A stretch of 64,000 bases of DNA. Origin: Thermomonas sp. GTDB lineage: Bacteria; Pseudomonadota; Gammaproteobacteria; Xanthomonadales; Xanthomonadaceae. The notes beneath the pieces were generated by a model that saw only the letters and a list, made by a program, of their open reading frames with translations, made no database searches and was not told where the DNA came from. The stretch is taken from assembly GCF_029945965.1 (NCBI RefSeq), contig NZ_JAQSDO010000020.1, positions 202,907 through 266,906 on the forward strand, read 5' to 3'. Made by a program: the position numbers and the translations under genes. Below, one piece after another: positions 21,192 to 34,271 of this stretch; positions within the stretch are counted from its first letter, which is position 1; the number at the start of each line of letters is the position of its first letter.

Positions 21192-24100
21192 ATGACTGAA
21201 ATGGCGACTGGCCCCACGGGATTGGACGGTGTGGCCACTGCATCGCATGGCTTGCTCATCCTTGGCATGCACCGCAGCGGGACCTCGCTTCTCGCGCGCT
21301 TGATCCAGCATTGCGGCATCGACATCGGCACGCGCTTGATCGGTGGCAGCGCCGGCAACGAAGCCGGTCACTGGGAGGATGCGGTGGCCGTTGAGCTGCA
21401 TGAGCGCCTGTTGGCTGCAATGGGGCGACGCTGGCATGACCTGCCGGTCCCCACGCCAGAGGCGATCGCTGCAGCGGCCAGTATCGATGTGCGTCCCACG
21501 CTGGCTGGCTACCTGTCACGAGACAGAGGTACGCATCGCAACTGGGCGGTCAAGGACCCTCGCTTGAGTTTGTTCGCAGGCCTGTGGGTGGATGCGGCGC
21601 GTGCGCCGGGCATCCACTTGGCGGGCTTGCTGATGGTGCGTGACCCTGTGGAGGTTGCCCAGTCCCTCGCAGTGCGTGACGGACTATCGCTTGGGCAAGG
21701 GCAATTGCTGTGGCTGGAGTACACGTTGGCGGCAATGGAGCAGGCCCAGGGCATCCCCTTGGCCGTATCCACTTACGATCAACTGATGGACGAGCCTGGG
21801 CGAGTGCTCGATCGGATTCGCTTGCTGCCGGGCTGGGGCGCTCTGTCATGGGATCGTGAGGCACTGCAGGCAATCATCGAGCCAAGCCAGCGCCACCATC
21901 ACTCTGATGCCGAGCGCAGTGCCGAACTTGTCCCGCTGCCGATCCGGGAACTATGGAAGGCCCTGGTCTCCGTGGCACATGGGGACGGTATCTTGCCGGT
22001 GGGGTTTGCCGCGGAGTGGCGCGAGCGGCTTTCGCCGTTTCTTTCGCTTGCGGGAAGCCTGGCCGCGGCCTGGCGGGTGACCGAGCACAGGCTTTGGGAA
22101 CGCGTGGCCCGAGCCGAGGCAGCGCCGGACGTCCACGCTGCGGTGGAAAGCCGGATCAGCGGATTGGAGCTGGCCCAGCAGAACCATCATCAGGAACTGG
22201 TTCGGGTGCTTTCCCACGATATAAAGGGCATGCAGGAAACCGCAGCCAGGCATCAGGCAGCGGCGGCCACGGCTGCCGCGCATTTGCAGGCTGCGCGGGA
22301 TGCCGGACCAGCGCTTGCGGCGCTGGCGGACCGGCTGGGCGCACTCTCGGACACCTTGGCAAGCTCGCAACAGCAGGCTCTTGAATGGCAGCAGGTAGCT
22401 GTGGAGCAGCGAGAGCGCGCGGACGCACTCGTTGTTCAGCTGGGTGAGCGGCAGCAGAGTTTCCAGGCGCTGGAGCGCCAGCTGGCCGAACGTCAGGCGG
22501 TGGTCGAGGCACACCAGGCGCGGTTGGATAGTCAGGCCCAGGTTGCCGACGAGCTCCAGCGGGAAGTGGGTTCTCTCAAGCTGCGGTCCACCAGTCTGGA
22601 AGGCGAGCTGGAGGATGTGCGGTCTAATAGCGACTCGCTTTCGGCCGAGCTTTCCGCTTTGCGAGCAAAGAACGACTTGCTCTGCCTGGATGCACGCACG
22701 CTTGCATACGTGGTCCGCTCGCGATCCTGGCGATGGACGAAGCCACTGCGGGCAGCGATGCGACTGGTGCGCGGAGACTGGGGTACCAACGAGTCGGCAA
22801 TCCTGAAAAGTTTGGTCCGGCGAGCGCTGGTCAGGCTTCCTGGTCTCTCCAAAGCGACCAGGGTTAAATTGATCGAGCAAAGTTTGCCGATGGGAAGCAG
22901 GGCGATCGCGCCGAGCAGTCTTCCCGATCAAGCCCTCGCAACGGCAATGCACTTGGCCCCGGCAGTGGAAGGCCGTGCTGATGTTTTCGTTTGGGCGGTG
23001 ATCGACTGGCATTTCCGGATGCAGCGTCCGCAGCATCTGGCGCGCTCACTCGCAGCCCGCGGACACCGCGTGTTCTATATGTCCAACAATTTCGTGGACT
23101 CGGCTGTGCCGGGATTCCACCTGGACCCGCTGGACGAATCCGGGCGGCTGTTCCAGGTCCACCTGAAACAGGAAGGCGCACCTGCAATCTACTTCGGGCT
23201 TCCGGACGACAAACAGGCGCAAGCCCTGCATGCGAGCCTGTCCGAGCTGCTGGCTTGGACCCACACGCGCGCGTCGATCTCCCTCGTCCAGCACCCCTAC
23301 TGGCGTCCGCTTCTGCGCAGCCTGCCCAACGCCCGGCTTGTATACGACTGCATGGACCACCACGGCGGCTTTGAAAACAACGCCGCATGCGTGCTTGAAG
23401 CCGAAGGCGCGATCATTCGCGACGCTGATCTGGTCATCGTCACGTCCTCCTGGCTCGAGAAGGAGATCGCGCCGATTGCTCGCGCCAGCGCCATGGTCCG
23501 CAATGCGGGTGAATATGAGTTCTTCAGCGCTGTGCCCGACGAGGTGTTCCGGGATGCGCGCGGCCGCAAGGTGATCGGCTATTACGGCGCCATCGCCGAA
23601 TGGTTTGACCTCGACCTGATCAGAAACCTGGCCCTGTCGCTACCGGACGTGCTGGTGCTTCTGGTCGGAAGCGATACTGCCGGCGCCGCTGCTGCGCTGT
23701 CCGATGTGCCCAACGTGGAGTTCACTGGCGAGGTTGCGTATTCCCGATTGCCATACTACCTCCATGCTTTCGATGTCGCGCTGCTGCCGTTCAAGGTCCT
23801 TCCGCTTACCCTCGCGACGAACCCGGTCAAGGTTTACGAATACCTCGCAGCAGGTAAGCCGGTAGTCACGGTCGACCTCCCGGAAATGGTCCAGTTCGAA
23901 GGGCTGGTGAAAGTGGCAAGTGCTGAGGGCTTCGTTGATGCCGTGGCCGAGCAGCTGACATGTGAAGCTGATCCGACCCAGGTCGCTGCGCGCAGGACGT
24001 TTGCCGCCGGGCAGACGTGGGACCACCGGGCGGCTTCACTCGATCACGCTTTGGCGGTGATCGAGGAGCCAGTCGTTAGCGTGGTGGTGCTGACCTACAA

Positions 24101-24848
24101 CAACCTGGCTTACACCAAGGCCTGCCTTTTCAGCATCGAGGCCTACAGCGACTATCCGGCGCTGGAAATCATCGTAGTGGACAACGCGTCCAGTGATGGC
24201 TCAGCGGAATGGCTGCGCAACTGGGCAGAAGAGCCGTCGGCAGCGGGTCACCGCCGGCGCTTGGTCCTCAACGAGGAAAACCTCGGGTTCTCGGCGGGAA
24301 ACAACGTGGGTCTGGCCGCTGCCACCGGCGAGGTGCTGATCCTGCTCAACAACGACACCTACGTGACGCCGGGCTGGGTCCGCACATTGTGTGCGCACCT
24401 GCGACGCGACCCACGCGTGGGGCTGGTGGGACCGATTACCAACAACATCGGCAACGAGGCCCGAATTGAAATCCAGTATTCGGACATGGTCGAGATGATC
24501 CAAAAGGCCGGTCAGTACACGCGCGCCCATGCGGGCCGATCGATCCCGTTGCACAACGCGGCGTTCTTCTGTGTCGCGATGCCGCGTGAAGTTTACGAGC
24601 GGGTTGGACCCATGGACGAGGACTTCGGCATCGGCTTCTTCGAAGACGATGACTACTGCCGCCGCGTGCATCTGGAGGGTTTCCAGGTGGCTTGCGCCGA
24701 AGACGTGTTTGTCCATCACCATCTCTCGGCCAGCTTCGACAGTCTGGGTGTCGAACGAAAACAGATCCTGTTCGAGAAGAACAAGGCCATCTACGAGGCG
24801 AAGTGGGGGCCATGGCTCCCCCATGTTTACCGTGGTCCAAGACCGTGA
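21192..24848 (+). CDS. Giant fusion: sulfotransferase - coiled coil - GT-B glycosyltransferase - GT2 glycosyltransferase
   Basis: 1218 residues, one uninterrupted frame. Residues about 19-260 are a sulfotransferase: LGMHRSGTSL is the 5'-PSB loop and LLMVRDPVEVAQSL the 3'-phosphate motif. Residues about 300-500 are Gln/Glu/Ala-rich coiled coil. Residues about 595-950 (DVFVWAVIDWHFRMQRPQHLARSLAARGHRVFYMSNNF ... NPVKVYEYLAAGKPVV) are a GT-B fold enzyme. Residues about 960-1218 are GT2: VVVLTYNNLAYT, VVDNASSDGS, LLNNDTY and the acceptor-side GFFEDDDYCRR. One polypeptide could therefore add two sugars and a sulfate. It lies 79 bp after the secretin gene and its stop overlaps the next start. Confidence 0.85.
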   Translation: MTEMATGPTGLDGVATASHGLLILGMHRSGTSLLARLIQHCGIDIGTRLIGGSAGNEAGHWEDAVAVELHERLLAAMGRRWHDLPVPTPEAIAAAASIDVRPTLAGYLSRDRGTHRNWAVKDPRLSLFAGLWVDAARAPGIHLAGLLMVRDPVEVAQSLAVRDGLSLGQGQLLWLEYTLAAMEQAQGIPLAVSTYDQLMDEPGRVLDRIRLLPGWGALSWDREALQAIIEPSQRHHHSDAERSAELVPLPIRELWKALVSVAHGDGILPVGFAAEWRERLSPFLSLAGSLAAAWRVTEHRLWERVARAEAAPDVHAAVESRISGLELAQQNHHQELVRVLSHDIKGMQETAARHQAAAATAAAHLQAARDAGPALAALADRLGALSDTLASSQQQALEWQQVAVEQRERADALVVQLGERQQSFQALERQLAERQAVVEAHQARLDSQAQVADELQREVGSLKLRSTSLEGELEDVRSNSDSLSAELSALRAKNDLLCLDARTLAYVVRSRSWRWTKPLRAAMRLVRGDWGTNESAILKSLVRRALVRLPGLSKATRVKLIEQSLPMGSRAIAPSSLPDQALATAMHLAPAVEGRADVFVWAVIDWHFRMQRPQHLARSLAARGHRVFYMSNNFVDSAVPGFHLDPLDESGRLFQVHLKQEGAPAIYFGLPDDKQAQALHASLSELLAWTHTRASISLVQHPYWRPLLRSLPNARLVYDCMDHHGGFENNAACVLEAEGAIIRDADLVIVTSSWLEKEIAPIARASAMVRNAGEYEFFSAVPDEVFRDARGRKVIGYYGAIAEWFDLDLIRNLALSLPDVLVLLVGSDTAGAAAALSDVPNVEFTGEVAYSRLPYYLHAFDVALLPFKVLPLTLATNPVKVYEYLAAGKPVVTVDLPEMVQFEGLVKVASAEGFVDAVAEQLTCEADPTQVAARRTFAAGQTWDHRAASLDHALAVIEEPVVSVVVLTYNNLAYTKACLFSIEAYSDYPALEIIVVDNASSDGSAEWLRNWAEEPSAAGHRRRLVLNEENLGFSAGNNVGLAAATGEVLILLNNDTYVTPGWVRTLCAHLRRDPRVGLVGPITNNIGNEARIEIQYSDMVEMIQKAGQYTRAHAGRSIPLHNAAFFCVAMPREVYERVGPMDEDFGIGFFEDDDYCRRVHLEGFQVACAEDVFVHHHLSASFDSLGVERKQILFEKNKAIYEAKWGPWLPHVYRGPRP

Positions 24849-26338
24849 TTCTCGCTTCGCATCACATGCCCGCCAGCAGGGTGAAGTTGCTTGTGGTTTT
24901 CGCCGCCTCGTTATTGACGTTCGCAGCGTTTTTCAATGCGGCCGCCTATATTGCCTATGCCGGGAATCCACTGGTTTCATCGGATGCGTGGTACTTCATT
25001 GATGCATTTCTGCAGCATGCATTGGATGTAGGGCCAAGTATTGCGGACTTCTTCGTCAAGCGCGATGTAACGGACCACGCCCAGCCGCTGGTGAAGGCGC
25101 TGCTATTGTTCAATGCACAATGGTTGGGCCTGGACTTCGTGTTCGAGGCGATCATGGGCTTGGTTTTCGCCTTCGCGACCTTCGTGATCCTGGTTGCCGG
25201 CACATGGGCCGATGCACGGAAAATGCAGCCACCGTGGTTGCACGGCCTTGCCATCGCTTCTATTGCAGCCGTACTCGTCACGTTCAACAGCGGGCTTGTT
25301 TTCAGCTGGTCACTGGTCACCCTCAGCTACATCTACTACGCTTTTGCTGCGCTTGGAGGGGTATTTGCCTGGCGAGCGCTGGTACACCGCCGCTACACCG
25401 GGCTCCTCGTCAGTTCGTTGCTGACTGCATTCCTGTTCGATGACGTCGGCATCCTGATATCAACGGCCGTGATCATCGCGTTGGTACTGGCGGCGGCAAA
25501 AACCCATCGATGGCGCAGAGGATTGCTCGCCATCGGGTTGGTCGTAATGAGCGAGCTGGCCTACCTGGCTGTCAGCCATGCATACCTTCAGCCCGCGGCG
25601 TTGTCCCCAGGCGACGACGGAGGGATCTTGGCGGCCGTGCAGCGCATGTGGGCACTGCGAGTTGGTGCGCTGGAGATTGGTCGAATCGTGTTGGGTACGA
25701 CATTGGCGCATGTGTTCCAACTGACTTATTACTTCCCTGGCCGGGAGTGGTCCGTCCAGGCTGGACTGGCGGCCATCGCGTTGCTGGCCCATGGGTGGTT
25801 TTGGTGGCGAGCCTGGCGTTGCACCTGGAACGCGCCGTTGTTCCTTGCTGTGGCCCTGATGCTGTTTTTCTACGCAATGGTTGCGGGGATCATTTACGTG
25901 CGGGTACCCGAGTACGGCATCAACTACCTGCACGACCCGCGCTATGCGGTGATCTACCTGCTCAGTAATGTTTCCTTGATTCTGATGGTATTGGGGCAGC
26001 CACTGCGCACGGCAAATACAATCGTTCGAGCGATGGTCGTGCTTTCGTTGACGTTGCTGATCGCCTTGCAAGTTCTGCTAGCCAACTTCACTTGGTACGA
26101 GGCACCCTTCCTTGCGTCCTACTATCATCAAATGGCCCGTGAGATGCTGGTATTGGGCGAAGGCAGGATGCCGGCGTCCTGCGTGCCGATCCTGACGGTT
26201 TGCCAGATGCCACCGGAGAAACGCGAAGCTGCGATGGCTTTCCTGAAGCAACACCATCTCAACATCTATTCGCGGGAATTCGTATCCCGCTACGGACTGC
26301 AGAAGCTGGTCACGGATACACCGGACTCAGCACGATAA
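24845..26338 (+). CDS. Polytopic membrane protein, unrecognised family
   Basis: 497 residues from a GTG at 24845 that overlaps the stop of the fusion gene (GTGA); an ATG at 24866 is the alternative. The first 50 residues of the ORF track lie inside the upstream gene. About ten hydrophobic segments alternate with short loops. An acidic residue pattern (SSDAWYFIDAF) after the first helix and a C-terminal soluble tail recall lipid-linked-sugar-using membrane glycosyltransferases, but no motif proves it. Coupling to the sulfotransferase/glycosyltransferase fusion suggests a role in the same glycan. Confidence 0.7.
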   Translation: MILASHHMPASRVKLLVVFAASLLTFAAFFNAAAYIAYAGNPLVSSDAWYFIDAFLQHALDVGPSIADFFVKRDVTDHAQPLVKALLLFNAQWLGLDFVFEAIMGLVFAFATFVILVAGTWADARKMQPPWLHGLAIASIAAVLVTFNSGLVFSWSLVTLSYIYYAFAALGGVFAWRALVHRRYTGLLVSSLLTAFLFDDVGILISTAVIIALVLAAAKTHRWRRGLLAIGLVVMSELAYLAVSHAYLQPAALSPGDDGGILAAVQRMWALRVGALEIGRIVLGTTLAHVFQLTYYFPGREWSVQAGLAAIALLAHGWFWWRAWRCTWNAPLFLAVALMLFFYAMVAGIIYVRVPEYGINYLHDPRYAVIYLLSNVSLILMVLGQPLRTANTIVRAMVVLSLTLLIALQVLLANFTWYEAPFLASYYHQMAREMLVLGEGRMPASCVPILTVCQMPPEKREAAMAFLKQHHLNIYSREFVSRYGLQKLVTDTPDSAR

Positions 26339-26434: not shown

Positions 26435-26863
26435 TCAGCAAGCCTTGCCTTTGATGACGATCGTGTTCAGGACATTCCCGTTCGAATCCTTGAGCTTGAA
26501 CGTCAGTCCAGGCTTGAGCCATGGGCCAGTCTCGAGAGAGCCGACCAAACCCTGTTCCGCAAATGGCGAATCTTTGCCGGCGTCATCGACGACAAAGATG
26601 CCCAGCTTGGTGATCTTGGGGTCGGTGACGTTCCAGTGCAGCGTCGTGCGAACCCCGGCGGCGATGTCGCAAGTGCGCACGAATGCGGGTGACGCGCAGA
26701 AGGCGCAGGTGGCGGTGTCGACTGCCGGCTCGTCGGCAGGTGCCGCGGCGGTTGCTGCGGCGACGGGTGTCTGGTCGCCTGCCGTCGGCGAAGAGGTGTC
26801 CGCGGCTGGGCGGTTGCACGCAGACACGGAGCAAACGAGAAGCAGTGCAAGTAGGACGCGCAT
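26435..26863 (-). CDS. Predicted lipoprotein of unknown function
   Basis: 142 residues from the ATG at 26863, preceded by CAGGAG; the track's longer version invades the upstream aminotransferase. MRVLLALLLVCSVSAC has lipobox VSAC. An Ala/Pro/Asp linker leads to a small beta domain with cysteines (ATCAFCAS, RTCDI, KGKAC) and the pattern RTTLHWNVTDPKITKLGIFVVDD. It ends the long leftward etf-glycan unit, 80 bp after wecE, and faces the rightward membrane-protein gene. Function unknown. Confidence 0.72.
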   Translation of the reverse strand: MRVLLALLLVCSVSACNRPAADTSSPTAGDQTPVAAATAAAPADEPAVDTATCAFCASPAFVRTCDIAAGVRTTLHWNVTDPKITKLGIFVVDDAGKDSPFAEQGLVGSLETGPWLKPGLTFKLKDSNGNVLNTIVIKGKAC

Positions 26864-26943
26864 AAAGTCTCCTGGGAAATTGGGTGGGCTGTTATACAAC
26901 TGGAAACCGGACTCGAACGTGAGGGACCAACGAGACAGTGGGC

Positions 26944-28077
26944 CTAATCGAGCAACAACAGGGCTTTGTCTGCCGCTGCCAGGACCTCGTCCATGTGCTC
27001 TTCGAGGCCCATCCAGAGCGGCATGCGCACCAGTCGGGCGCTCAGGTCGTCGGTTACCGGCAGCTCGCCGGAGGCACGACCGAAGCGCAGGCCGGCCGGG
27101 GACGAATGCAGTGGTATGTAGTGGAAAACCGTGCCCACGCCCGAGTCGTTCATGTGCTGGATGAACGCAGTGCGCTTTTCCAGGCTCGGCAGCAACAAAT
27201 AATACATGTGTCCGTTGTGGGTGCAATCGGCCGGGACGATCGGGCGCCGCAGGCGGCCCGCCGCCTCATGGCCGGTGGCCCACTCGTGGTACCGGTCCCA
27301 AAGCGCAAGGCGCCGCTGCGTGATCTGCGTGCCGGCGTCCATCTGGGCGGCCAGGAATGCCGCGATCAGTTCGCTGGGAAGGTAGGAGGAGCCGATGTCG
27401 ACCCAGGTGTATTTGTCGACCTGGCCACGGAAGAACTTGCTGCGGTTGGTTCCCTTCTCGCGAATCACCTCGGCCCGTTCGGCGTAGTGCGCATCCCGGC
27501 ACAGCAATGCTCCACCCTCGCCCGAAATGATGTTCTTGGTCTCGTGGAAGCTCAGGCAGCCAAGGTCACCCAAGGTTCCCAATGGACGGCCCTTGTAAGT
27601 GGAGAAGATTGCCTGGGCGGCGTCCTCGACGACGGCCAGGCCGTGCCGTGCCGCGATGGCCAGAAGCGTATCCATTTCGCAGGACACGCCGGCGTAATGC
27701 ACCACGCAGATCGCGCGCGTGCGTGGTGTGATTGCTGCCTCCACCAGCGATTCATCGAGGTTGAGCGTGTCCCGCCGAACGTCGACAAACACCGGCACAG
27801 CGCCGCGCAGGGCGAATGCATTGGCGGTCGAAACGAACGTATACGAGGGCATGATCACCTCGTCGCCGGGCTCGAGGTCCAGCAGGAGTGCACTCATTTC
27901 CAGCGCCGCGGTACAGGAATGCGTGAGCAGGGCGCGGGCTGCCCCCGTTTGTGCTTCCAGCCAAGCGTGGCATCGCTTGGTGAAGGGGCCATCGCCCGAG
28001 AGATGGCCGTTCGCGTGCGCCTCTGCGATCAGCTGGAGCTCGCGCCCCGTCATGTACGGCCGGTTGAAGGGAATCAT
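26944..28077 (-). CDS. wecE: DegT/DnrJ/EryC1-type sugar aminotransferase (WecE-like)
   Basis: 377 residues from the ATG at 28077, overlapping the preceding methyltransferase stop. It starts MIPFNRPYMTGREL, like WecE/RffA. PLP-site features are VVEDAAQAI and SFHETKNIISGEGG, the lysine of HETKN forming the aldimine. WecE converts dTDP-4-keto-6-deoxyglucose to dTDP-4-amino-4,6-dideoxygalactose (TDP-Fuc4N). With wecB and a WecD-like acyltransferase domain in the same unit, the pathway to an N-acylated 4-aminosugar is nearly complete; the dTDP-glucose genes are not here. Exact sugar stereochemistry is inferred. Confidence 0.88.
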   Translation of the reverse strand: MIPFNRPYMTGRELQLIAEAHANGHLSGDGPFTKRCHAWLEAQTGAARALLTHSCTAALEMSALLLDLEPGDEVIMPSYTFVSTANAFALRGAVPVFVDVRRDTLNLDESLVEAAITPRTRAICVVHYAGVSCEMDTLLAIAARHGLAVVEDAAQAIFSTYKGRPLGTLGDLGCLSFHETKNIISGEGGALLCRDAHYAERAEVIREKGTNRSKFFRGQVDKYTWVDIGSSYLPSELIAAFLAAQMDAGTQITQRRLALWDRYHEWATGHEAAGRLRRPIVPADCTHNGHMYYLLLPSLEKRTAFIQHMNDSGVGTVFHYIPLHSSPAGLRFGRASGELPVTDDLSARLVRMPLWMGLEEHMDEVLAAADKALLLLD

Positions 28078-28943
28078 GCGGGGATTTTCTCGGCAACAAT
28101 CAAGCGGGTACCTCCAATCGGAAAACGGACACCCATCCGGATCAGGAACCGTTCCACTGCCATGATGCCTCCGAGGGTGCGGTTGAGCCAACCCGGCAGC
28201 CTGAACTCGCGGAACGGATCCTGCTCACGGGCCTTGTTGCCCTTCACCAGGCGGGATGCAGCGAGCGCGGGCAGCAGCAGCGCGACAAAGGAAGTGCTGA
28301 AAATTACCCGGAATCCGTTGCGACGCAACTTGTCTTCCAGTTCCCTGGGCTGGTAGCGGCGGACATGATGCGCGTACTCATCCTGCACGCTCCACAGCCA
28401 TGGATGTTGCGGAACGGTCAACAGGATCCTGCCGTCCGCGCGTAGCGCACTGCGCACCTGCTGGAGCACTTCCTCGTCCTCGGTCACGTGTTCCAGCACG
28501 TCGAATGCCCCAATCGCGTCGAAGTGGTCCACGAACGGGATGTGACGCGCATCCATCTGCATGAACCCCGCTTGCGGCAGTCGCCGCGCTGCGATCTCAA
28601 GGCCTTCCACGAAGATTTCGGAACCTTGGCAGCGCATGCCGGGGTACTCCCGTGCAATCGCCCCAAGCACGAACCCCGTGCCGCAACCAATCTCGAGGAA
28701 ATCCCCCCGAGCAGGTACATAGTCATCGATTGCATCAAGGATCAACGCGTTGCGTGCCTTGAACCAGAAGTTTCCAGCCTCGAGGGTGCTCAGTTCCACA
28801 TAGTGGGCTGGATCGTATCCCGGCGCCTCTCCGGCCAGGATCGGCGCATACGCAGGAAAACCATGGATCGATTCCGGGGCGTACCCGCACTGCGGACACG
28901 TGCCTCCGTCATGCGGGCATCCGCATGGCAAGCACGCGTTCAA
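28074..28943 (-). CDS. SAM-dependent methyltransferase
   Basis: About 289 residues from a TTG at 28943 that overlaps the stop of the ArnE-like gene (TTGA); a GTG at 28982 is the alternative start. The N-terminus has a zinc-ribbon-like CLPCGCPHDGGTCPQCG. The methyltransferase domain follows: motif I FLEIGCGTGFVLGAI, then AFDVLEHVTEDEEVL and LLTVPQHPWLW. Such class I enzymes with an N-terminal Cys cluster often methylate polysaccharide sugars. Its stop overlaps the wecE ATG, which supports a role on the same glycan. Substrate unknown. Confidence 0.82.
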   Translation of the reverse strand: MNACLPCGCPHDGGTCPQCGYAPESIHGFPAYAPILAGEAPGYDPAHYVELSTLEAGNFWFKARNALILDAIDDYVPARGDFLEIGCGTGFVLGAIAREYPGMRCQGSEIFVEGLEIAARRLPQAGFMQMDARHIPFVDHFDAIGAFDVLEHVTEDEEVLQQVRSALRADGRILLTVPQHPWLWSVQDEYAHHVRRYQPRELEDKLRRNGFRVIFSTSFVALLLPALAASRLVKGNKAREQDPFREFRLPGWLNRTLGGIMAVERFLIRMGVRFPIGGTRLIVAEKIPA

Positions 28944-29305
28944 TTCAGCCCTGCGACCACGATGCCGGCCACGATCAGGCACACGCCCAGCATCTTGGCG
29001 GTGCTGATGGGCTCGGCGAACAGCACCCCGCTGCCAAGGACCACAATGACGAACGCGAACGCCGTGAATGGATATGCAACGCTCAACGGGAGTTTAGTCA
29101 GCGCCAGCATCCATGCCACCGATGCCACGAGCGCTGCCAGCAGCCCGCTGGCAATCCAGGGATTCGTCAGCAGGTGGAAAATGTAGATCGCCTTCTGGTC
29201 CAGTCCCGCCGGAATGGGGCCCGCCATGGCGACTTGCCACTTGATCACGAATTGACCGTAGACGGTGAGCAGGACGGTGGTGGCAACCAGCAGGTATCCG
29301 ATCAT
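28940..29305 (-). CDS. Small EamA/DMT-type membrane protein (ArnE/ArnF-like)
   Basis: 121 residues from the ATG at 29305; the extra N-terminal 49 residues of the ORF track are not membrane-like. Four helices are clear: MIGYLLVATTVLLTVYGQFVIKW, an internal pair, and AKMLGVCLIVAGIVVAGL. The GQ..IKW motif and size match the small multidrug-resistance/ArnE-ArnF group, whose members flip undecaprenyl-phosphate-linked aminosugars. Place among aminosugar genes favours a flippase subunit over a drug pump. Confidence 0.78.
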   Translation of the reverse strand: MIGYLLVATTVLLTVYGQFVIKWQVAMAGPIPAGLDQKAIYIFHLLTNPWIASGLLAALVASVAWMLALTKLPLSVAYPFTAFAFVIVVLGSGVLFAEPISTAKMLGVCLIVAGIVVAGLN

Positions 29306-29312
29306 CGATGGG

Positions 29313-30449
29313 TCACCGGTTGGCCAGCAGATCATTGTAAGCCAGCACGCAGGCGCGCCCGTGCGCATCCGTGATCGTCGCCACCGCTTGTGTGGTGCGG
29401 GAACCCGGCGAGGACCGGTAAAGGATGCGAAGCCTGTGCGCCTGGCCAGCAAGCACGGGTCGCAGGAACGTCATGTTGGCTCGCAAGTACAGGGTGCCCG
29501 CGCCTGGAACTTCGGTCCCGAAGATCCTCGAGAGCTCTGCGCCGGCCAGCATGCCATGGGTGATGCGCCCCTCAAAGCCGGCGGCGCGCGCCTTGGCGTC
29601 GTCAAGGTGCAGCGGATTGGTGTCTCCCGATGCCAGGGCGAAGCGTTCCACCTGATCGTTGCTGAACAGTACCTCGCGCTCCACGATGCGGTCGGCGGCG
29701 CTGAGCATGGCGTTGACGTGGAAGGTATCCAGCGCACGCGCCAGCACGAACCCCTCTCGCGCCCAGACTTTCTGCACGGCGTAGTTCCAGACCTGGGTGG
29801 AAACCTCCATCTTGCCGAAGCCGCGCGCCTTGAATTCGGACTGGGTGTGGCGAATGAGGTCGCCATACAGGCCGCCGCCGGCATGGGCGGGATGCACCCC
29901 GTACAACACGCCTTCGCAGGTGCTGGCGTGTTCGTTGAATTTGCAGCAGGCGAACGCGACGATAGCGCCATGCCGCCGGGCGACCCAGGTGATACGGTCG
30001 GTGCTGGAGGTATCAATGTATCCACCCGCCCATTCCAGGTAACCCGCCAGGATCCGTTCGGCCGGAAAGTTCGGGTTGGCGTGGTAGTGACTGGTGTAGC
30101 CGACGAACGTAGTCTCCACCAGTGCCTGCAGTTCCGCGGCATCGGTGATCGTGGCGATGGAGAACGCGAGATCCTGGTTGCGCAGCGCACGCGGTACGTG
30201 AGTGCCGAGGTCCAGCGTGTAGTAAACCAGGGTGTCGGCGTGCAGGGTGGGCAGGCCGTGGCGCGACAGGCGCGACGAGGCCGTCCGCAGGCCCGCGGGC
30301 AGGCGGATGATGGCCACGTCGACGCTGTCGGCAATGATCTGCCCAACCAGCCGCTTTTCCTCCAGGTCGTCCATTTCCGCACGCGATATGCGAAGCCCGA
30401 AGCGTTCAGATTCCAGTGCGGAATGACGCAGCGTGGAGAGCTCACTCAT
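29313..30449 (-). CDS. Fusion of WecD-like GNAT acyltransferase and MaoC-type hot-dog hydratase domain
   Basis: 378 residues from the ATG at 30449 (ATGA overlap with the GT2 gene). Residues 1-95 (ESERFGLRISR ... DVAIIRLP ... ADTLVYYTLDL) resemble the N-terminal half of WecD, the TDP-Fuc4N acetyltransferase. Residues about 100-245 form the GNAT fold with the acyl-CoA loop GVHPAHAGGGLYGDL. Residues about 253-378 are a MaoC/(R)-hydratase domain: SGDTNPLHLDDAKARAAGFEGRITHGMLAGAELS contains the catalytic Asp and His of this family. The fusion could supply and transfer a 3-hydroxyacyl group to an aminosugar, with the wecE product as likely acceptor. The combined function is inferred. Confidence 0.82.
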   Translation of the reverse strand: MSELSTLRHSALESERFGLRISRAEMDDLEEKRLVGQIIADSVDVAIIRLPAGLRTASSRLSRHGLPTLHADTLVYYTLDLGTHVPRALRNQDLAFSIATITDAAELQALVETTFVGYTSHYHANPNFPAERILAGYLEWAGGYIDTSSTDRITWVARRHGAIVAFACCKFNEHASTCEGVLYGVHPAHAGGGLYGDLIRHTQSEFKARGFGKMEVSTQVWNYAVQKVWAREGFVLARALDTFHVNAMLSAADRIVEREVLFSNDQVERFALASGDTNPLHLDDAKARAAGFEGRITHGMLAGAELSRIFGTEVPGAGTLYLRANMTFLRPVLAGQAHRLRILYRSSPGSRTTQAVATITDAHGRACVLAYNDLLANR

Positions 30450-31435
30450 GCCGGATCTTCCGCGTTGGCGGTGCGGTCGGCAACCACGTAGTAAGGACGC
30501 TGCTTGGAGGCATTGAACAGGCGACCGAGATACAGGCCGATGATGCCAACGCAGAAAGTGACCACGCCCCCCAGCAACCAGATCGACGCGATGATGCTGG
30601 TGAAGCCCGCGACGGCAACGTCGCCGATGCTGAAGCGATAGACGCTGACAAGTACGATCACGAGCGCAAACACCGAGAACCACAGGCCGGTCTGCACCAC
30701 CAGCCGCAAGGGTTTGTCGGAATACGACAGCACAATGTCCGTCGCAAGGTTGATCAGCTTGCGGAGGCTGTATCCGCTTCGGCCAGAGGTGCGCGGAGCA
30801 TGTTGCACGGGTACCGTCGTCATCGGCAGGCCGGTCCACTTCACCATCAGGGGAAAGCAGCGATCCCGCTCGGGCATGCGGTTGACGAGATCTATCGCCC
30901 GTCGGCTGAACACCCCGAAGTTGGCGGTAGTGTGGTCCTGGGGTACGCCGGTGAGGTAGCCCAGGACGCCGGAGAACGCGCGCGAAGCAAGTCGCTTGCG
31001 AAGGCCGTCCTGCCGCTGCTCGCGTGACGCGAATACGATGTCGTAGCCTTCGCGCGAACGTGCAAGCAGTCGAGGCATCTCCTCGGGTAGGTCCTGCAGG
31101 TCGCAGTCCAGCAGGGCGACGATGTCGCCACGCGCGTGCTCGATCCCCGCGGCAATCGCGTAATGCTGCCCGAAGTTACGCGACAGGCGCAGGCCCTTCA
31201 CGCTGGAGTGCGTTGCCGCGAGTTCAAGGATGCGCGGCCATGCATTATCCGGGCAGGCATCGTCAACCAGGATGATCTCCACCGCATCGCAGCGGCCATC
31301 AACCGCACGCAGCAGTCGCTCCACCAGGTCTTCGAGACAGGGTGCACATCCGTAGACGGGCGAAACAATGCTCAACAGGTTAGGAATCGCACGCAGATGC
31401 AGCAGTGCGTCGGCATTGACTGGTTGTATCGCCAC
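30446..31435 (-). CDS. GT2 glycosyltransferase with two C-terminal membrane helices (DPM1/ArnC-like)
   Basis: 329 residues from a GTG at 31435 directly abutting the wecB stop. The GT-A domain has SIVSPVYGCAPCLEDL, IILVDDACPDN and the metal-binding LLDCDLQDLPEEM; the RxSGRSGYSLRKLINLA segment is typical of polyprenyl-phosphate glycosyltransferases. Two membrane helices follow (LWFSVFALVIVLVSVY; LLGGVVTFCVGIIGLYLGRLF). It would charge undecaprenyl phosphate with a sugar, matching the neighbouring ArnE-like flippase. Donor unknown. Confidence 0.87.
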   Translation of the reverse strand: MAIQPVNADALLHLRAIPNLLSIVSPVYGCAPCLEDLVERLLRAVDGRCDAVEIILVDDACPDNAWPRILELAATHSSVKGLRLSRNFGQHYAIAAGIEHARGDIVALLDCDLQDLPEEMPRLLARSREGYDIVFASREQRQDGLRKRLASRAFSGVLGYLTGVPQDHTTANFGVFSRRAIDLVNRMPERDRCFPLMVKWTGLPMTTVPVQHAPRTSGRSGYSLRKLINLATDIVLSYSDKPLRLVVQTGLWFSVFALVIVLVSVYRFSIGDVAVAGFTSIIASIWLLGGVVTFCVGIIGLYLGRLFNASKQRPYYVVADRTANAEDPA

Positions 31436-32590
31436 TTAACGACCCCCGCGCCCGGAAGTTGCCAGTATGGTGGCGATCCGCGCCGATGCGTGGCCGTCGC
31501 CGTAGGGATTGTGGGCCAGCGACATGGCCCGGTAAGCGTTGCCGTCGTCGAGCAGGCCGGCCACCGCGTTCACGATGCTTGTGGGGTCGGTCCCGACCAA
31601 CCTGACGGTGCCCGCGGCAACCGCTTCCGGTCGCTCGGTGGTATCGCGCATGACCAAGACGGGCTTCCCGAGTGACGGCGCCTCTTCCTGGATGCCGCCC
31701 GAGTCGGTCAGGATCAGATGCGCTTGCTGCATGAGGTAGACGAACGGCAGGTAGTCCTGCGGTTCGATCAGATGGATGTTGGGACGATCCGCCAGCAGCC
31801 GCAAGACTGGCTCCTGGACATTGGGGTTGAGGTGCACCGGATAGACGATCTGCACGTCGTCGCGGCCAGCCAGCTCCGCCAGTGCCGCGCAGATGCCCTC
31901 GAACCCCGCCCCGAAGTTCTCGCGCCGGTGCCCGGTGACCAGGATCAGCTTGCGCCTGGTATCGAGGAAATCGAACCGCGCTGCCACCTCACGGGCAAGC
32001 CCGGCGTCGGCGTCGAGCAGGGACGCTACTTGCAGCAGTGAATCAATCACGGTATTGCCGGTCACGTGCACGCCAAGGCCGGGAATGCCTTCGCCGAGCA
32101 GGTTGTCGCGTGCGGCGGCAGTGGGGGCAAAATGCAGGGAGGCAAGCGGCGAAGTCAGGCGGCGATTCATTTCCTCGGGCCAGGGAGACTGCAGGTTCCC
32201 GGTACGCAATCCCGCCTCAACGTGTGCCACCGGGATCTTGGCGTAGAACGCCGCGAGCGCGCTGGCGAACGTGGTGCTGGTGTCTCCATGCACCAGCAGC
32301 ACGTCTGGACGTGACGCCGCCAGGACGTCCCGCATGCCCAGCAGGATGCGGGCGAACAAGGACTCCAAATCCTGTCGCGGCTGCATTAGGTTGAGGTCGT
32401 GTTCCGGCACGATGCGGAACAGCGTGAGGACCTGGTCCAGCATCTGTCTATGCTGGGCCGTCACTGCCACGCTGACGCGCACGTCGTCGCGCTCGCGCAG
32501 GGCCAGCACCACGGGCGCCATCTTGATGGCTTCGGGACGCGTCCCCAACACCACCATCGCGTGCAGGCGTGCGTCCACCACCAGACTCAA
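31436..32590 (-). CDS. wecB: UDP-N-acetylglucosamine 2-epimerase (non-hydrolysing)
   Basis: 384 residues if started at the TTG overlapping the etfA stop (TTGA); an ATG 33 bases in ([12 protein letters not shown]) is also possible. Family motifs: [44 protein letters not shown] and [27 protein letters not shown]. It interconverts UDP-GlcNAc and UDP-ManNAc for glycan synthesis. The dehydrogenase wecC is absent here. Direct coupling to etfA is unusual. Confidence 0.93.
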
Positions 32591-33525
32591 AGCGCCGCCT
32601 GCAATTCCGGCAATACGGTGAACAAATCTCCTACCAGACCAATGTCGGCGATCTCGAAAATCGGTGCATCGCCATCTTTGTTGATCGCAACAATCGTACC
32701 TGCATCCTTTATTCCGGTCAGGTGCTGGATCGCGCCACTAATGCCGATCGCGACGTAAAGTTCCGGGGCAATGATCTTGCCGGTCTGGCCAACCTGAAGC
32801 TCGTTCGGCACGTAGCCGGCATCGACCGCCGCGCGCGAGGCGCCAACCGCGGCGCCGAGCTTGTCAGCAAAGTCGTAAATGATCTTGAAATTTTCCTGCG
32901 ATCCGACGCCGCGGCCGCCGGAGACCACGCGCTTGGCGCTCTGCAGGTCGGGGCGTTCGGAACTGCCCGCTGCCAAGCCGATGAAGCGGGTATGCGTGGG
33001 CAAGGCGGCATCGAGGCTGACTGCTTCTACCGATGCGCTACCGCCTCCGGCGGCTTCTGGCCACGAGGCGGCGCGCACGGTGGCGACCACGGTGTGATCG
33101 GCCGGTGCTTCAACCGTAATAATCGCGTTGCCGGCGTAGATCGGACGCTTGAACGTATGTGTGCCCTCGACGCTCATTACGTCCGACACCTGTGCCACGC
33201 CGAGCAAGGCGGCGACGCAGGGCATCAGGTCCTTGCCGAAGGTGGTGCTGGGCCCGAACACATGCGAATAGCCGGCGGCGACCTGCGCCACCTGCGGTGC
33301 GAGTACCTGGGCGATCGGATGTGCATTCGCGGCATTCGCGACGGTCAGCACCTTGGTCACGCCGGTAATCTGCGCGGCTTGCGCGGCGACGGCGGCGGGA
33401 TCCGCAGCCAGCACCACGATGTCGATGGATTCCGCGTTCAGTGCCTGCGCGGCGGACACGCACTTGGCGGTCGCGGCGTTGAGCTTGCCGTGCAGGTGTT
33501 CGGCGACGATGAGAACCTTGCTCAT
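32587..33525 (-). CDS. etfA: Electron transfer flavoprotein alpha subunit
   Basis: 312 residues, normal length. The C-terminal FAD-binding part contains [65 protein letters not shown] and [20 protein letters not shown], the ETF-alpha signature. It forms a cytosolic heterodimer with EtfB, taking electrons from acyl-CoA dehydrogenases to the ETF:quinone oxidoreductase encoded at 36-37.7 kb. It overlaps etfB by one base. In Xanthomonas, etfA is the right border of the LPS cluster. Confidence 0.97.
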
Positions 33526-34271
33526 TACAGCAACCCCTTTGCCTTGAGTGCGGCGACCAGTTCGGCCGCGTCCTTCACCATCACGCCGCGGCTGCGCTTG
33601 GCAGGCGCCGCGTAGTGGGTGGTCTTCAATGTGTCACTGGCATCCACGCCGAGGTCGGCGAATGCAATCGTCTCCATCGGCTTGCTCTTGGCCTTCATGA
33701 TGTCCGGCAGCTTGATGAAGCGAGGCTCGTTCAGGCGCAGGTCGGTGGTGATCACCGCCGGCAGGTCGACTTCAAGCGTCTCCAGGCCAGCATCGACCTC
33801 GCGCACCACGGTGGCCTTGCCGTCGGCGATGTCCAGCTTGCTGGCGAAGGTCGCCTGCGGGCGACCCCACAGCGTGGCCAGCATCTGTCCGGTCTGGCTG
33901 GCGTCGTCATCGATCGCCTGCTTGCCCAGGATCACCAGGTCGGGCTGCTCTTTCTCGATCAGCTTGAGAAAGGTGCGCGCGGCAGTCAGCGCCTGCACCT
34001 GCCCGTCCACCACCACGTGGATGGCGCGGTTGGCGCCCATCGCCAAGCCATTGCGCAGGTGCGGCTGTGCGTCGGCGGGAGCAATGGTGGCGACGATCAC
34101 CTCGGTGGCGATGCCCTTGTCGCGCAGGCGCAGCGCTTCTTCCAGCGCGATATCGTCGAACGGGTTCGGCGACAGCTTGACGCCGTCGGTGACCACGCCG
34201 GAACCGTCTGGCTTGACCTGGATGCGGACGTTGTAGTCCACCACGCGCTTGTAGGCGACGAGAATCTTCAT
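33525..34271 (-). CDS. etfB: Electron transfer flavoprotein beta subunit
   Basis: 248 residues. MKILVAYKRVVDYNVRIQVKPDGSGV and NPFDDIALEEALRLRDKG are the family start; PDLVILGKQAIDDDASQTGQMLA and VVREVDAGLETLEVDLPAVITTDLRLNEPRF are the ETF-beta signature, including the AMP-binding region. It is the first gene of a leftward run of ten genes that continues, with overlaps or tiny gaps, through etfA into the aminosugar genes. The promoter should lie in the 201-bp gap shared with scoA. Confidence 0.97.
   Translation of the reverse strand: MKILVAYKRVVDYNVRIQVKPDGSGVVTDGVKLSPNPFDDIALEEALRLRDKGIATEVIVATIAPADAQPHLRNGLAMGANRAIHVVVDGQVQALTAARTFLKLIEKEQPDLVILGKQAIDDDASQTGQMLATLWGRPQATFASKLDIADGKATVVREVDAGLETLEVDLPAVITTDLRLNEPRFIKLPDIMKAKSKPMETIAFADLGVDASDTLKTTHYAAPAKRSRGVMVKDAAELVAALKAKGLL

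Follow-up and report, generated by a model that had tools for sequence, protein, structure and literature searches.

A WecD-like acyltransferase fused to a MaoC-type hydratase in an aminosugar operon of Thermomonas sp. and other Lysobacteraceae

WecD is the TDP-Fuc4N N-acetyltransferase of E. coli (2FS5/2FT0), a two-part GNAT protein with an N-terminal half-domain; it is partnered by WecE, is not fused to a MaoC domain, and is encoded in an ECA-type operon with Wzx and Wzy. PhaJ (1IQ6, 5CPG) consists of a MaoC domain with a D...N..H motif and an HG loop and is a free enzyme of PHA metabolism. Anthrose is a Qui4N derivative whose acyl group is 3-hydroxy-3-methylbutyryl, and AntA is an enoyl-CoA hydratase of the crotonase type and a separate protein. 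Within antABCD of Bacillus anthracis, antA contributes to anthrose but is not essential; its loss halves the amount (PMC10050317). The viosamine island of P. syringae (vioA, vioB, vioM, vioR, vioS, acp, and vioT) provides a TDP-4-amino-4,6-dideoxysugar with N-3-hydroxybutyryl and methyl groups (PMC3927599).

The window, by which we mean the whole stretch of 64,000 nucleotides from Thermomonas sp. that was analysed, contains a gene that joins relatives of WecD and PhaJ. A sequence-only reading of this DNA had described a GNAT acyltransferase fused to a MaoC-type hydratase at 29313-30449 and gave no strand. The fusion is real and its gene lies on the minus strand, with an intact ORF from an ATG at 30449 to the stop at 29313. 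A long open frame on the plus strand is antisense to the fusion. The gene and its parts are as follows.

29313..30449, minus strand: fusion gene P0002, WecD-like GNAT plus MaoC hydratase, 378 aa (ORF and domain matches)
29718..30449, minus strand: GNAT part, residues 1-244, WecD-like N-terminal half-domain and catalytic GNAT domain (PF00583, NCBIfam WecD, 2fs5)
29898..29915, minus strand: GNAT strand before the P-loop, residues 179-184 (EGVLYG; register from the WecD alignment)
29763..29765, minus strand: Trp229, aligned to the catalytic Tyr208 of WecD
29313..29717, minus strand: MaoC/PhaJ-like hotdog domain, residues 245-378 (PF01575, PhaJ profile matches)
29607..29627, minus strand: hydratase motif G275-D276-T-N278-P-L-H281 with the catalytic Asp and His (G, D, N, and H invariant in 13/13)

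Both domains gave Pfam matches above the cut-offs. Acetyltransf_1 (PF00583) matched only residues 147-234 (E 2.6e-8) and the NCBIfam WecD model NF008212 matched residues 11-236 (E 9.3e-6), which is the two-part layout of WecD, and a GNAT profile built from 20 family members had WecD (2fs5) as its top PDB match (E 3.5e-6). The earlier assignment of the N-terminal part to WecD thus held for the fold but not for orthology: the NF008212 score of 25.6 bits is far under the equivalog cut-off of 219, and the position of Tyr208, a catalytic residue near the thioester in WecD (PMC4964394), is occupied by Trp. This Trp is present in 20/20 relatives, fused or not, so the family as a whole must have another way of transferring the proton. 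The MaoC_dehydratas match (PF01575) covers residues 258-352 (E 2.2e-18; 66.5 bits, cut-off 27), and the best PDB matches of the MaoC profile are the PhaJ (R)-specific enoyl-CoA hydratases 5cpg (E 6.3e-23) and 1iq6 (E 5.4e-22). As the sequence-only reading had noticed, the D-x-x-P-x-H hydratase core is intact (A-S-G-D276-T-N-P-L-H281 ... T-H298-G-M). Unlike PhaJ, it stands here in a C-terminal domain on a sugar acyltransferase. An AlphaFold model based on three sequences reached a pLDDT of 58, too poor for judging geometry.

The fusion is part of a compact operon, whose gene order on the minus strand is etfB, etfA, wecB, ArnC-like GT2, fusion, ArnE/F-like SMR, methyltransferase, and WecE.

32587..34271, minus strand: etfA-etfB, housekeeping flank of the surface-polysaccharide slot family-wide, outside the pathway (Pfam and locus comparison)
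31436..32590, minus strand: WecB, UDP-GlcNAc 2-epimerase, which only some of the relatives have (TIGR00236, 493 bits, cut-off 210)
30446..31435, minus strand: ArnC-like GT2, resembling undecaprenyl-phosphate glycosyltransferases (PF00535; ArnC-type NCBIfam model NF007986, 176 bits, under the cut-off of 529)
28940..29305, minus strand: ArnE/ArnF-like small membrane (SMR) flippase subunit, 121 aa (NCBIfam ArnF E 2.3e-12, ArnE E 6.3e-12, both under the cut-offs)
28074..28982, minus strand: SAM methyltransferase, an optional operon member with homologues in some loci only (PF13489)
26944..28077, minus strand: WecE, dTDP-4-amino-4,6-dideoxygalactose transaminase (NF008687, 595 bits, cut-off 375)

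The WecE score bears out the earlier identification of this aminotransferase three genes away. The GT2 gene overlaps the fusion start, and the methyltransferase gene the WecE start, by 4 bases each, and the SMR gene starts 7 bases past the fusion stop, a spacing that makes co-translation likely. RmlB, which makes the precursor of the WecE substrate, is encoded on another contig of the same genome. The etfAB genes were considered as a functional tie to enoyl-CoA metabolism, and this was rejected; because they also border slot loci without any MaoC gene, they are a landmark only.

A small predicted lipoprotein with a signal sequence and a lipobox Cys (window 26435-27226, minus strand) has counterparts with a similar C-terminal half at L006:9739-10176, L050:13955-14413, and L051:14014-14421, adjoining both types of aminosugar operon described below; the window copy matched no Pfam family above cut-off. 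A polytopic membrane protein without a Pfam match is encoded near WecE on the opposite strand (24692-26338, plus strand) and may be the periplasmic GT-C glycosyltransferase that acts on the flipped sugar. The plus-strand gene at 21192-24848 encodes a 1218-aa protein in which a coiled coil precedes GT1-like and GT2 glycosyltransferase domains; at its N-terminus, LILGMHRSGTS resembles the P-loop of a sulfotransferase, and no such Pfam family was reported.

Full-length fusions were present in 9 of 397 sampled genomes of the family (Lysobacteraceae), including the source genome; Lysobacter lacus (L006) is a culturable carrier. Another fusion-bearing Lysobacteraceae operon came from a contig recorded as the cyanobacterium Tolypothrix campylonemoides (L005, JXCB02000025.1), with an EtfB 84% identical to that of the window; this contig is probably a contaminant in the Tolypothrix assembly. 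The nine family genomes and the contaminant contig yield 10 distinct fusion sequences. The nine others share 49-62% identity with the window fusion and lie in the same operon, which excludes a chance or assembly join. Every fusion locus that was read has the fusion between the GT2 and SMR genes with WecE following, and etfBA adjoins the operon in nearly all 10. More broadly, WecE was present in every GNAT locus of this operon type that was read, and GT2, SMR, GNAT, and WecE occurred together in nearly every one, the SMR gene not being found in L042. Beyond the family, relatives found in an order-level search have the GNAT but no complete MaoC domain, 369 genomes sampled from the class gave no match at E<=1e-20 except the source genome, and none of 72,556 plasmid records covers 80% of the fusion. 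In Pseudorhodobacter, a GNAT relative adjoins rffA/wecE. A second type of methyltransferase (about 206 aa) is encoded between the SMR gene and WecE at L034:10644-11264 and in L036, L038, L039, L041, L043, L046, and L005. Operons with and without the fusion both have it, and methylation therefore varies with no link to the MaoC domain.

In many relatives encoded in the same operon type, the protein is a GNAT alone (about 255 residues), and a few have a C-terminal tail from which the catalytic stretch is missing: L041 and L042 within the family, and L069 and, by eye, L008 outside it. Against the MaoC profile, the tail still gave a match in L041 (E 4e-6) and L069 (E 2.7e-4), barely one in L042 (E 0.05), and none in L008. 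A hotdog shell can therefore outlast catalysis, and the MaoC domain might be a structural, dimerising, or acyl-CoA-binding appendage on a plain N-acetyltransferase making Fuc4NAc, much as WecD itself acetylates TDP-Fuc4N. We consider this improbable. Across 13 complete MaoC domains, comprising the ten distinct fusions and the three separate MaoC proteins described below, the catalytic D, N, and H and the second H-G are invariant, although only 15 columns of the whole domain are and the rest has diverged to 34-58% identity.

The GNAT part also differs between fused and unfused forms, which again speaks against a passive appendage. All ten fusions have G180, Y183, and G184 (GxxYG) on the strand beside the P-loop, whereas twelve unfused relatives have [I/V]xxN[A/G], with I or V at 180, N at 183, and A (once G) at 184. 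In L041, which has lost the MaoC core by deletion, this strand is in the unfused state, yet L042, L069, and L008 have G180 and G184 despite lacking a catalytic MaoC core, so the link between this change and an active hydratase is not strict. In the tree, the fused GNATs and two relatives with degenerate tails form one clade (support 98/96), and because the fused forms share this clade, their G180/Y183/G184 residues are not independent events. These residues suggest a changed acyl donor without proving it.

A third line of evidence against the appendage comes from a second operon type. The sequence-only reading had proposed looking for GNAT and MaoC domains next to sugar aminotransferases. Apart from the fusions beside WecE, split pairs occur in operons of the WxcK-L-M (Fuc3N) type, which fill the same chromosomal slot in L050, L051, and L052. 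These operons encode a VioA/WxcK-like aminotransferase, a WxcL-like GT2, a WxcM-like hexapeptide-FdtA protein, a WecD-like GNAT (E 9e-12 against NF008212 in L051), a MaoC protein, and GtrA. The GNAT and MaoC are separate adjacent genes, located between the wxcM and GtrA genes as follows.

L050:8871-11081: GNAT and MaoC gene pair
L051:8796-11070: GNAT and MaoC gene pair
L052:8808-10821: GNAT and MaoC gene pair

The separate MaoC proteins are 39-43% identical to the domain of the fusion and are extended at the N-terminus by about 80 to 150 residues; in L052 this extension weakly resembles the GNAT N-terminus (35% over 63 residues, E 6e-4). L058 and L059 have an operon of the WxcK-L-M type with a GNAT, and no MaoC gene was found in them. 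The GNAT and MaoC modules thus occur as a pair, in one gene or in two, in both kinds of aminosugar pathway, with the hydratase as the optional part; this is the pattern expected if the hydratase sets the acyl group, and it suggests that Fuc3N in the L050-L052 strains may also bear an acyl group other than acetyl.

We therefore return to the sequence-only proposal that hydratase and acyltransferase act as a pair on an aminosugar. The fusion clade, the split gene pairs, and the altered P-loop strand favour the pair, while the nature of the acyl group is what we infer. With moderate confidence, we predict from sequence that the protein is a bifunctional nucleotide-aminosugar N-acyltransferase whose MaoC domain would make an (R)-3-hydroxyacyl-CoA and whose GNAT domain would transfer the acyl group to TDP-Fuc4N, for a decoration of LPS carried on undecaprenyl phosphate. 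RmlA, RmlB, and WecE would provide TDP-Fuc4N. The substrate that the PhaJ-like domain hydrates would be a short enoyl-CoA (crotonyl-CoA most likely) and its product the (R)-3-hydroxyacyl-CoA (probably 3-hydroxybutyryl-CoA); the WecD-like domain would pass the hydroxyacyl group to the 4-amino group of the sugar. A C4 acyl group (3-hydroxybutyryl) is most likely judging from the nearest MaoC relatives. The ArnC-like GT2 would then load N-acyl-Fuc4N on undecaprenyl phosphate, the ArnE/F-like protein would flip it, and a periplasmic glycosyltransferase would presumably add it to LPS; the methyltransferase may decorate it further. Hydration could in principle follow transfer, the GNAT attaching a crotonyl group and the MaoC domain hydrating the N-crotonyl sugar, since sequence does not separate the order of the two steps and a fusion would hold the product close to the second active site. 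This is very improbable, however: MaoC and PhaJ enzymes act on CoA or ACP thioesters, and an amide is a poor Michael acceptor.

The main weakness of the proposed mechanism is the presence of PhaB and a PHA synthase in the genome. PhaB was found above cut-off; a PF07167 search of the genome returned no PHA synthase above cut-off, and a weak match reads, by eye, as a class III PhaC adjoining a PhaE-like gene. The idea of a cell without another route to 3-hydroxybutyryl-CoA was accordingly rejected, and the hydratase is not the sole conceivable source of the (R)-3-hydroxybutyryl-CoA. The MaoC domain may be a second, local source, or may serve another enoyl-CoA. The same pair might thus handle a different acyl group, with the MaoC domain taking 3-methylcrotonyl-, tiglyl-, or a longer 2-enoyl-CoA, or dehydrating the 3-hydroxybutyryl-CoA of PhaB to crotonyl-CoA, and the sugar receiving a branched hydroxyacyl or an unsaturated acyl group. 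MaoC hydratases are reversible, the anthrose precedent is a branched acyl group, and with phaB present 3-hydroxybutyryl-CoA may need no hydratase. We regard this as unlikely, though less so than an appendage, because the closest solved MaoC relatives are PHA-type (R)-enoyl-CoA hydratases, enzymes that in PHA metabolism usually work in the direction of the hydroxyacyl-CoA, and no gene in the operon supplies a special enoyl-CoA.

Overall, the fusion is real, conserved, and well placed, and the preferred mechanism, in which the MaoC domain supplies the hydroxyacyl-CoA, is plausible. A bolder version is that one polypeptide couples fatty-acid-type chemistry to surface-glycan synthesis, passing the (R)-3-hydroxyacyl-CoA that it has formed from an enoyl-CoA on to its GNAT active site for N-acylation of TDP-Fuc4N, and that Lysobacteraceae change the acyl group on their O-antigen sugar when the hydratase module is gained, split off, or inactivated; we offer this tentatively, as somewhat less probable than not. 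If true, the fusion would be a sequence marker for 3-hydroxyacyl aminosugars of bacterial surface glycans and possibly an enzyme usable for making them from cheap enoyl-CoAs, and a family of bacteria from soil, water, and plants would be able to alter an exposed epitope through a modular change to one gene. The sequence-only reading knew of no described enzyme with this architecture, and we likewise found no description of a GNAT-MaoC fusion in the open-access literature searched.

Among known systems, antABCD is similar in combining a hydratase, an aminotransferase, and an acyltransferase to give a 3-hydroxyacyl-amido-dideoxysugar. The viosamine island of P. syringae shares the set of aminotransferase, acyltransferase, and methyltransferase, but it assembles its acyl group de novo with a ketoacyl-ACP synthase III, a reductase, and an ACP, and uses VioB as the acyltransferase (PMC3927599). 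Its sugar is Qui4N, whereas the sugar of the window operon would be Fuc4N and its acyl group would come from an enoyl-CoA. The mention of 3-hydroxybutyryl aminosugars in Pseudomonas by the sequence-only reading is confirmed for the flagellin of P. syringae (PMC3927599). The wxc cluster of Xanthomonas campestris (wxcK-wxcN) places an aminosugar branch on the O-antigen with a gene set that resembles the window operon, and L050-L052 and L059 have an operon similar to this cluster in the etf-side slot; the reported product of the cluster is FucNAc, and we found no mention of a GNAT or MaoC gene in the description of the cluster (PMC4878081). The Ara4N module (ArnC and ArnE-ArnF) has clear GT2 and SMR relatives co-occurring around the GNAT and WecE, but both score under the NCBIfam equivalog cut-offs; the window operon, which is of this ArnC/ArnE-F type and not of the ECA type, may work like the Ara4N pathway but is not that pathway itself. 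Beside the ACP system of P. syringae and the anthrose hydratase, a third route to 3-hydroxyacyl dideoxy-aminosugars would be the combination of a WecD-like GNAT with a PhaJ-type hydratase, in one protein or as a pair.
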